Shown piece after piece: positions 52,346 to 54,897 of a DNA stretch of 64,000 nucleotides (its first letter is position 1; each line of letters starts with the position of its first letter). The DNA comes from an uncultured Paracoccaceae bacterium. GTDB lineage: Bacteria; Pseudomonadota; Alphaproteobacteria; Rhodobacterales; Rhodobacteraceae. Location of the stretch: positions 62,001 to 126,000 of the forward strand of contig CAKZOU010000057.1 of assembly GCA_937138255.1 (NCBI GenBank), given 5' to 3'. Below the pieces are notes generated by a model. That model ran no database searches, was not told the DNA's origin, and was given only the letters and a program-made list of their open reading frames with translations. A program made the translations under genes and the position numbers.

Positions 52346-53680
52346 TCAGTCGGCCTTTGCAGGCTCCGCATCGCCAAGTATCCGCACCTCGCGCTGCGGG
52401 AAGGGGATCGAAATGCCGTTTTCGTGGAAGGCATCCCAAAGCGCAAGATACACATTTCCGCGGATATTGGTCAGGCCCTGCGTGGGGTCGCGGATCCAGA
52501 AGCGCAGTACATAGTCGATGCTGGAATCGCCAAAGCCGGTGATGTGGCAGACGGTCTGCTTGTCGGTCAGCACCCGGTCGACCGTTTTGGCCGCGGCAAT
52601 CGCGATGCGCCGCACGTCGTGCGGGTTGTCGTGGTAGGACGTGCCGAAATGAATATCGAGCCGGACGAAATCGTCGGAGTGCGACCAGTTCACCACCTGC
52701 CCGGTGATCAGGTCTTCGTTCGGGATCAGGTATTCGCGCCCGTCCCGCGTGGTGATCGAGACATAGCGGGCGCCAAGGCTGTTGATCCAGCCGAAGGTAT
52801 CGCCAAGGCTGATCACATCGCCGGGTTTGATCGACTTGTCGAGAAGGATGATCACGCCCGAGACAAGGTTGGACACGACCTTTTGCAAGCCGAAGCCGAG
52901 GCCGACACCGATCGCACCGGAGAGAACGGCAAGGCCGGTCAGATCGACCCCAACCGCCTTCAGCCCGACGAACAGGGCGACGCCATAAAGGATCAGCTGA
53001 ATGAACTTGATCGACAGAACCCGCATCGAGGGGCTGAGATCGGTGTTGTCCTGAATCCTCTGCGAAGTGGTTCGTGACAGGAACCGTGCGGCATAGAACA
53101 AGACGCCGATGACCAAGACCGCCTGAAGCACCAGCCAGACCGAGATCCGCAGGTCGCCAAAATGAATGGCCATGCTGTCGAGGATCGCCTGAACCTCGTT
53201 GGTGATATTCAGAACGCTGAGCGTCACCCAGATCCAGGCGCCATAGCGCACCACTGTTCGCAGCGGGCCATAGCTGATCAAGCGCGCCGCGACGGCAACG
53301 ATCAGCCAGGCGAAGGTCAGATTGCCGACGATGGCCAGCAGATAGGAGCGGGACGGCCACGTCACCTCGCGCATGATCAGAACCGTGACCCAGATCAGCA
53401 CGACGAAGCAGATCAGCGTCATACGCTTGTGCACGACAAGCGCCCAACGCATCCGCGACATGGGCCAGCCCTCGCGCGTTCGCAGCCAGTCGTGATATTT
53501 CGGTGCGATCCAGCGCGTCAGAAGATAGGCGACTGCAAAAACGCCCAGTAGGATCGCGACCTGATAGGCGTTCCAGGGGCGGAACAAGGTGCCAAGGAAA
53601 ACCCAGAGCTGCTCAATCAGCCCGCGACTGATTTCTACGGCATCTGTCGTTGTCTGCTCCACCCGCTGATCGCCCTCCAT
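52346..53680 (-). CDS. Mechanosensitive ion channel (MscS family)
   Basis: 444 residues with about six membrane segments. The MscS pore helix and beta domain are visible: GLAVLSGAIGVGLGFGLQKVVSNLVSGVIILLDKSIKPGDVI, then DTFGWINSLGARYVSITTRDGREYLIPNEDLITGQVVNWSHSDDFVRLDI. It opens under membrane tension to release solutes in hypo-osmotic shock. The extra N-terminal helices put it among the mid-size MscS proteins. It is monocistronic as far as can be seen. Confidence 0.94.
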   Translation of the reverse strand: MEGDQRVEQTTTDAVEISRGLIEQLWVFLGTLFRPWNAYQVAILLGVFAVAYLLTRWIAPKYHDWLRTREGWPMSRMRWALVVHKRMTLICFVVLIWVTVLIMREVTWPSRSYLLAIVGNLTFAWLIVAVAARLISYGPLRTVVRYGAWIWVTLSVLNITNEVQAILDSMAIHFGDLRISVWLVLQAVLVIGVLFYAARFLSRTTSQRIQDNTDLSPSMRVLSIKFIQLILYGVALFVGLKAVGVDLTGLAVLSGAIGVGLGFGLQKVVSNLVSGVIILLDKSIKPGDVISLGDTFGWINSLGARYVSITTRDGREYLIPNEDLITGQVVNWSHSDDFVRLDIHFGTSYHDNPHDVRRIAIAAAKTVDRVLTDKQTVCHITGFGDSSIDYVLRFWIRDPTQGLTNIRGNVYLALWDAFHENGISIPFPQREVRILGDAEPAKAD

Positions 53681-53742: not shown

Positions 53743-53934
53743 TCAGCCTTCGGTTTCTGCCTCGTCGCTCGTGTCCGTCTCGGGGCGCCTGAGCCGCCCG
53801 GCCCGCCAAAGCGCGTCGCGCAGGATGAACTCGATCTGGCCGTTGACGCTTCGCAGATCGTCATCGGCCCAACGCGCCACGGCTTCGAGAATGTCTTCCC
53901 GAAGCCGCAGGGGATATGCCTTCTTGGCCGCCAT
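53743..53934 (-). CDS. Small Arc/ribbon-helix-helix DNA-binding protein
   Basis: 63 residues. AAKKAYPLRLREDILEAVARWADDDLRSVNGQIEFILRDAL has the Arc-type RHH layout: short basic beta-strand (YPLRLR), then two helices with the S-x-N-x-x-I-E-x-x-L signature. The acidic tail (TDTSDEAETEG) is variable. It lies 2 bp after the SPFH gene stop, so it is co-expressed. It may regulate its own operon through the GATATC repeats at the promoter. A toxin-antitoxin role is not supported, since no toxin gene is adjacent. Confidence 0.85.
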   Translation of the reverse strand: MAAKKAYPLRLREDILEAVARWADDDLRSVNGQIEFILRDALWRAGRLRRPETDTSDEAETEG

Positions 53935-53936
53935 GA

Positions 53937-54836
53937 TCAGTAGAGGCTGCCGGCGTTTATCACTGGCGTCGGTTCGGCGCCGCTGGACAGAACCACCATG
54001 AGATTGGCCACCATCGCCGCTTTACGTTCGGGATCCAGAGCCATTCCGTCGCTTAGTTCCAGCTCCTTCACCGCAGCAGCGACAATGCTGACCGTGCCCT
54101 TGACGATGGTCTCGCGCGCATCAAGCAAGGCGCTCGCTTGCTGGCGCTTGAGCATCGCAGCGGCGATTTCGGTTGCGTAGGCAAGGTGATTGATCCGCGC
54201 CTCGACGATCTCGATCCCGGCTTCGGCAACCCGCGCCTGAATCGCCTCCATCATCTTTTCGGCCACCTCGGCGGTGTCGCCACGCAGCGACAGGCCATCG
54301 TGGCTGTCGTTGATTCCGAAATCATATGGATAAGAGCTGGCCAGCGAGCGGACAGCGCTTTCCGTCTGGGTTTCGACATAGGTATCGTAGTCTTCGACCT
54401 CGAAAACCGCGCTCACCGGATCGACGACGCGCCAAACGACGATGGAGCTGATCTCAATCGGATTGCCAACCGCGTCATTGACCTTGCTGCGGCTCGATTC
54501 AAAGTTCCGCAGGCGGGTCGAGACCTTCATGCGCGGATAATAGAACGGCAGCGTCCAGCGCAGACCGGCGGTCGCGTCCGTGCCGCGATAGTCGCCAAAC
54601 ATGGTGAGAACCCGCGCTTGCTTGGGCTGGTTGAGGAAGAAGCCGGGAATCAGGAAGGCTGTGAGAACCGCCGACGCGATCAAGATCAATACCGCCCGAG
54701 CCTCGGCCCCGATACTGATACTGCGGATGAACCCTGAAATCGCGAGCACTTCGCCCGCAATCAAAAGCAGCAGGACAGCTACGCCTGAAACGACAAAGGC
54801 GCGGCCGGAAATGGTAGGGACCGGGGAATTAGACAT
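53937..54836 (-). CDS. SPFH/Band 7 (prohibitin-domain) membrane protein
   Basis: 299 residues from ATG 54836, with GGAG 7 bases upstream; a GTG two codons earlier is possible. Two N-terminal membrane segments (about 14-38 and 47-68). The SPFH domain follows: PKQARVLTMFGDYRGTDATAGLRWTLPFYYP, IEISSIVVWRVVDPVSAVFEVEDYDTYVETQTESAVRSLAS, then a helical stretch with IVEARINHLAYATEIAAAMLKRQQASALLDARETIVKG. Such proteins form membrane microdomain scaffolds. No NfeD partner is present; an RHH protein follows instead. The promoter region has a tandem GATATC operator-like pair. Confidence 0.92.
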   Translation of the reverse strand: MSNSPVPTISGRAFVVSGVAVLLLLIAGEVLAISGFIRSISIGAEARAVLILIASAVLTAFLIPGFFLNQPKQARVLTMFGDYRGTDATAGLRWTLPFYYPRMKVSTRLRNFESSRSKVNDAVGNPIEISSIVVWRVVDPVSAVFEVEDYDTYVETQTESAVRSLASSYPYDFGINDSHDGLSLRGDTAEVAEKMMEAIQARVAEAGIEIVEARINHLAYATEIAAAMLKRQQASALLDARETIVKGTVSIVAAAVKELELSDGMALDPERKAAMVANLMVVLSSGAEPTPVINAGSLY

Positions 54837-54851
54837 CGACACACTCCACTA

Positions 54852-54870
54852 TGATATCATCTTGATATCT
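54852..54870. promoter_or_regulatory. TGATATC tandem sites at the SPFH promoter (candidate operator)
   Basis: TGATATCA (54852-54859) and TGATATCT (54863-54870) sit 11 bp apart, one helical turn, between the putative promoter and the SPFH start. This spacing suits a ribbon-helix-helix tetramer such as the Arc-like product of the same operon. Confidence 0.45.
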
Positions 54871-54897
54871 ATCTAGGTGGTCTTGCGAAAAGTTCAA
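54870..54897 (-). promoter_or_regulatory. Putative promoter of the SPFH-RHH operon
   Basis: On the minus strand TTGAAC (54897-54892), a 16-base spacer and TAGATA (54875-54870). Transcription would start near the second GATATC box. Confidence 0.45.

Follow-up and report, generated by a model that had tools for sequence, protein, structure and literature searches.

On the minus strand of the window, the 64,000-nucleotide stretch of DNA analysed here, an SPFH/Band_7 membrane scaffold gene (54836-53937, 299 residues from its ATG) is followed after a 2 bp gap by a gene for a 63-residue Arc-type ribbon-helix-helix (RHH) protein, a proposed autorepressor (53934-53743). The ORF list also offers an in-frame SPFH start at a GTG at 54842; the ATG was preferred because a GGAG lies 7 nt before it. 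Profile search identified RHH and an MscS-type channel gene (52346-53680, minus strand), which starts 62 bp past the RHH stop, as the neighbors of SPFH, and no NfeD gene next to it in the window. The original prediction, an SPFH gene with a 63-residue RHH protein 2 bp downstream in place of an NfeD partner, thus agrees with the coordinates, the Pfam Band_7 and Arc matches, and the RHH and MscS genes found downstream.

The SPFH protein matches Pfam Band_7 (PF01145) with an E value of 6.2e-24 and 85.4 bits against a curated cut-off of 23.6. Scores for the subfamily equivalog models fall below their cut-offs (hflK 30.8 versus 159.4 bits, hflC 27.7 versus 134.4), and with these low scores and no NfeD neighbor in the window, membership in HflK/HflC or the NfeD-linked SPFH1/2 groups was rejected. 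In a single-chain AF2 model (pLDDT 81.6), two N-terminal hydrophobic helices (residues 18-41 and 45-65), which look like a predicted membrane hairpin, precede the SPFH domain, after which come a long helix and a disordered tail. Foldseek matched the model to human stomatin (E 1.5e-13) and HflK (2.7e-13), with further resemblance to prohibitin, HflC and QmcA. The protein ends in a conserved C-terminal tail, P-x-x-N-A-G-S-L-Y.

The RHH protein scores 22.9 bits against the Pfam Arc family (PF03869; cut-off 20.4), with RHH_5 and ParD_like below threshold, and Arc is its top solved relative in a profile search against the PDB. Its model (pLDDT 83.4) also returned Arc at Foldseek rank 1 (E 0.065, probability 1.00), with AmrZ near; for such a short chain no match reached E <0.001, the probability being near 1. 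Across 26 aligned homologs K5, R10, R28, S29 and N31 are invariant and positions 6 and 8 vary. Positions 6, 8 and 10 are equivalent to the base contacts of the Arc beta-strand; two of these three positions therefore vary, yet the operator is constant. Against PHROGs both proteins gave weak matches only: for RHH, Arc-like families no better than E 0.0016, and for SPFH, a "lipoprotein" family at E 1e-7. No relatives of the SPFH protein were found in viral contigs; a phage origin of the pair was set aside on the weak PHROG matches.

Two GATATC boxes with 11 bp spacing lie 16-34 bp 5' of the SPFH ATG. The heptamer TGATATC occurs at 54852-54858 and 54863-54869, and on the minus strand at 54859-54853. 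Read on the minus strand, box 1 is AGATATCA (54863..54870) and box 2 is TGATATCA (54852..54859), the box conserved across phyla; a third consensus position (54841..54848), read against the consensus, holds the degenerate TGGAGTGT, which contains the ribosome-binding GGAG. A weak sigma70-like promoter candidate (54870..54897, minus strand) consists of TTGAAC at 54897-54892, N16, and TAGATA at 54875-54870. By reading, box 1 begins at the final base of the candidate −10 TAGATA and +1 would fall inside box 1; a strict promoter scan found no promoter in the SPFH upstream region.

The heptamer alone is not rare, with 7 copies in the window against 3.9 expected and 10 of 100 shuffles reaching 7. The tandem GATATC-N5-GATATC, however, has a single occurrence in the 2.85-Mb genome, and when the 64-kb window is scored with the cross-phylum operator model described below, the four best sites fall within 54840-54882 (16.4, 14.8, 12.5 and 7.4; next best 0.7). 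Four close relatives of the same genus retain both genes (RHH identity 78-92%), together with GATATC or ATATCA boxes in tandem. Two TGATATC boxes 11 bp apart near the transcription start had been predicted; both are present, but the operator is better described as up to three TGATATCA-type boxes.

Conservation of the pair

The co-occurrence of the two genes was examined in loci picked by SPFH alignment similarity, independently of RHH. An RHH gene (E <1e-18) lies downstream on the same strand in 80/80 of these loci, the best 80 of 586 confirmed relatives. By record titles they come from about a dozen phyla: Pseudomonadota, Actinomycetota, Bacteroidota, Bacillota, Verrucomicrobiota, Acidobacteriota, Gemmatimonadota, Planctomycetota, Armatimonadota, Ignavibacteriota, Aminicenantes and Eisenbacteria. 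Among 249 Pseudomonadota genomes the SPFH and RHH profiles match in 29 each; the strong matches of both fall in the same 27 genomes, the window's own included, and are always adjacent, the remainder being two weak SPFHs without RHH and two weak RHHs without SPFH. The suggested check for the pair in other genomes thus gave a clearly positive answer, in 80/80 loci and 27/27 genomes. Within the family the presence of SPFH is patchy, since no close match was found in 20 other same-family genomes (best E 1e-9) or in the 15 same-family genomes listed in the 249-genome set.

Sampling of three further phyla, centre genomes included, gave SPFH matches in 17/149 Actinomycetota, 32/148 Bacteroidota and 40/149 Bacillota genomes, from which 21, 30 (of 32) and 30 (of 40) loci, respectively, were fetched. 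RHH lies near SPFH in 17/21 Actinomycetota loci, that is, in 17/17 genomes with an SPFH match. Four of the Actinomycetota genomes that have the pair carry, in addition, a second, remote SPFH paralog (L228, L229, L230, L231), which lacks RHH, the operator and the C-terminal tail alike. In Bacteroidota RHH is near in 28/30 loci and 1.8-1.95 kb away in the other two. In Bacillota it is near in 28/30; the genomes of two Bacillota loci (L266 and L287) yielded no RHH at E 0.001, in assemblies that may be incomplete. Plasmids also carry relatives: among 7 of 28 records examined, RHH was found in those of Deinococcus, Nonomuraea, Bosea, Qipengyuania, Prevotella and Acetoanaerobium, and was missing from a divergent Pseudomonas relative (L037).

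Immediate adjacency of the two genes held in part: the gap is at most 136 bp in 73 of 91 RHH-positive loci, but 185-1764 bp in the other 18 (9 of them Bacteroidota), mostly with reading frames in between. Reading frames separate SPFH and RHH in the Bacteroidota loci L071, L072, L074, L086, L091, L098, L103, L109 and L117; the intervening genes checked were DUF6141-like, DUF4177 and alpha/beta-hydrolase. The SPFH and RHH trees agree, with a cophenetic r of 0.61 over 190 pairs against a permutation maximum of 0.085.

The MscS gene raises the question of whether the operon in the window has three genes. It lies on the same strand, close behind RHH, and is kept next to the pair in 5/5 genus members examined, at 91-98% identity in the four others. 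The genomes that keep it are close relatives, however, and inclusion of the channel in the operon is possible but less likely than not. Clustering of neighbors over the 80 loci, with following genes read for 17 of them, recovered mainly Streptomyces synteny and no third gene common to many phyla.

The operator across genomes

The exact octamer TGATATCA is found between −250 and +30 of 73 of 92 SPFH genes, with 83 copies in 25.6 kb of promoter regions compared with 7 in 455.5 kb elsewhere in the same loci. Six control 8-mers gave at most one copy each in the promoter regions for five of them and two copies for AGATATCT. Alignment of the promoters on TGATATCA revealed weaker boxes 11 bp to each side. 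An operator model was built as a 32-column matrix trained on the 80 loci, reading.TGATATcAAA.TGATATCAtTTTGATAT; a score at the 99th percentile of 2375 background windows served as its threshold. The array shows palindromic symmetry and an 11-bp period, and its core is kept from Streptomyces to Bacteroidota.

Outside the training set, the model finds a site in 101/101 RHH-positive promoters and in 0/8 RHH-negative ones (Fisher 2.6e-12), so that the boxes are conserved wherever the pair is. Two of the loci (L245 and L248) were set as RHH-positive by hand from a separate RHH search, and three of the 101 (L211, L247 and L262) duplicate the training loci L066, L072 and L114. After redundancy was removed by SPFH identity to earlier loci, the counts were 96/96 (<90%, that is, 101 minus five loci with at least 90% identity to earlier ones), 87/87 (<80%) and 68/68 (<70%). 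Among the eight RHH-less SPFHs, six score as remote relatives (128-316 bits), which leaves L266 and L287 as the only close-family cases. In the SPFH tree L287 sits among RHH-positive loci, nearest to L290 and L283, and repressor and operator therefore look to have been lost together there. A low-core model match on its contig (17.6), about 1.4 kb 5' of SPFH and beyond a gene and an apparent RNase P RNA, is read as chance. Within the training set, four loci fell under the threshold: two with the start wrongly picked (L068 and L095, site at +127 and +88), one (L104) with a weak site only (6.6), and L091. In L091, operator-like sites lie 974 bp upstream of SPFH, as if a gene had been inserted between.

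The position of the array relative to promoter elements was examined at 111 promoter sites, those at which the model scored best on the gene strand. TTG elements of −35 type are most frequent 19-20 bp upstream of the central box (25/111 sites), and TANNNT starts at +3 of that box in 56/111, in part a property of the box itself. Upstream of the TGATATCA-type box, Streptomyces promoters (L058, L066, L073, L079, L084, L088, L090, L093, L100 and L112) have additional blocks in common, such as GGAACCGACG and GGTTGC in many cases, perhaps the site of another regulator or sigma factor.

Probable autorepression and its alternatives

The pair and its operator are conserved together, and absent together, across phyla. 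We infer from these patterns that the RHH protein occupies the boxes and represses on binding. RHH dimers would bind TGATATCA boxes one helical turn (11 bp) apart across the −10/+1 region, where the bound array would block RNA polymerase, keeping expression of the SPFH-RHH operon low and self-limited until a signal lifts repression. An operator over −10/+1, and not upstream of −35, is the usual placement for repression, and because the bound array would cover −10/+1, regulation would be negative and autogenous. The joint conservation of pair and operator favors the self-regulated two-gene unit originally proposed, and we put at roughly 85% the probability that the SPFH scaffold and its own Arc-type autorepressor form a self-repressing module found across much of the bacterial domain.

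The same boxes might instead serve activation, with RHH switching the operon on or alternating between activation and repression. AmrZ-type RHH proteins do both, according to the available text of PMC3325190, and the RHH model also resembles AmrZ; the boxes nevertheless lie on −10/+1 and not 5' of −35, and activation is improbable. Nor do we give much credence to a reading in which the boxes serve some other widespread regulator, or act as an alternative promoter element, and RHH has a different function. The central box often carries a −10-like TATCAT, and many genomes hold further, weaker matches to the pattern. Such a reading is at odds with a palindromic 11-bp array whose core is kept over that phylogenetic range, and with its absence from all eight RHH-less SPFH promoters; it is quite unlikely. 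An antitoxin role, suggested by the database name "HicB family antitoxin" given to the RHH protein in Qipengyuania (L035:2264-2455) and by the sub-threshold ParD_like match, is hardly credible, given a 300-residue SPFH protein as the constant neighbor, the neighbor clustering described above, and no match of either protein to any PADLOC model, and a type II toxin-antitoxin or defence identity was rejected. That name is misleading, as is "PTS ascorbate transporter subunit IIC" in Deinococcus (L032:2406-2603), and public annotation thereby conceals the pairing.

A more speculative reading gives a part to the SPFH tail. The tail, P-x-x-N-x-G-[ST]-L or, written more fully, P-[VI]-x-N-x-G-[ST]-L-Y, matches its strict pattern in 187 of 191 SPFHs counted with RHH, a tally in which a few genes were entered twice, and the remaining four tails are conservative NTS variants. 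It is intact in only 1/9 truly RHH-less SPFHs and lost or altered in 8/9; two SPFHs scored as RHH-less have RHH further off, and their tails match. In both close-family losers (L266 and L287) the SPFH end is altered or shortened, though the final Tyr is also missing in some RHH-positive Bacteroidota. The tail could be where RHH docks, although phylogeny alone could explain the pattern, most RHH-less cases being remote. Going one step further, the SPFH oligomer might be the sensor of the circuit, its tail docking RHH and holding or releasing it according to the state of the membrane. We regard this as speculative and rather unlikely; if true, the pair would constitute a bacteria-wide two-protein membrane-stress switch.

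Each part of the module belongs to a known kind. Arc, the repressor of phage P22 (PF03869), resembles the window protein in its RHH family, by profile, and in RSVN at the start of the second helix. In the Arc operator, too, tandem sites spaced by one helical turn lie across a promoter and are bound by side-by-side RHH dimers. In contrast with Arc, the window protein is chromosomal and linked to SPFH, has TGATATCA as its operator, and departs from Arc at two of the three positions where the Arc beta-strand contacts bases. The SPFH-NfeD operons (QmcA-YbbJ, flotillin-YuaF) likewise place an SPFH gene in a conserved two-gene operon; here the partner is a DNA-binding RHH protein and not a membrane NfeD protein, and the SPFH has its own conserved C-terminal tail. 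PutA and AmrZ are also RHH regulators. PutA is a repressor that moves from DNA to the membrane; here the membrane protein and the RHH protein are separate chains.

To our knowledge, the control and role of the smaller bacterial subfamilies of the very widespread SPFH scaffolds have not been established, and few regulator-operator pairs are conserved across such a range of phyla. The available text of Hinderhofer 2009 (PMC2636767) gives NfeD operon partners for SPFH1, SPFH2 and SPFH5 and no documented members for SPFH6-12. The words "ribbon", "repressor" and "DNA-binding" are absent from the available text of a 2026 study of nine Pseudomonas aeruginosa SPFHs (PMC13086221), and the sole RHH mention in PMC8656257 is a VirC2 reference. 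No description of an SPFH-RHH pairing appeared among the freely available papers listed, and as far as could be seen the combination of a scaffold with its own repressor is undescribed. A regulator and a located operator accompany the scaffold in four evenly sampled phyla, and also in about nine others, each represented by one to five loci. A promoter reporter would offer a handle with which to screen for the inducing condition, and this may reveal the function of the SPFH protein.

Possible further targets

The number of sites per genome points to the operon's own promoter as the main, and often the only, target of the RHH protein, with a few further targets possible in some species. With up to two mismatches, the two-box pattern is present at the SPFH promoter in 27/27 Pseudomonadota genomes. 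With up to one mismatch it occurs at only one other place in the 27 (in G126), within a reading frame, and with up to two it occurs at 37 other places, spread over 15 of the 27 genomes (36 in addition to the one-mismatch place), against 3 matches for the reversed control. The second match in the window's own genome also falls in a reading frame.

Fifteen other genomes, A+T-rich ones included, gave 126 matches against 32 for the control, with strands counted apart. They hold seven one-mismatch places away from SPFH, three in long frames and four outside them, and because four of the seven lie outside long frames a wider regulon is possible in some genomes. One two-box match with a single mismatch, in Maribacter (L305:1535-1552), lies 28 bp before a 411-residue frame and is a possible second target.
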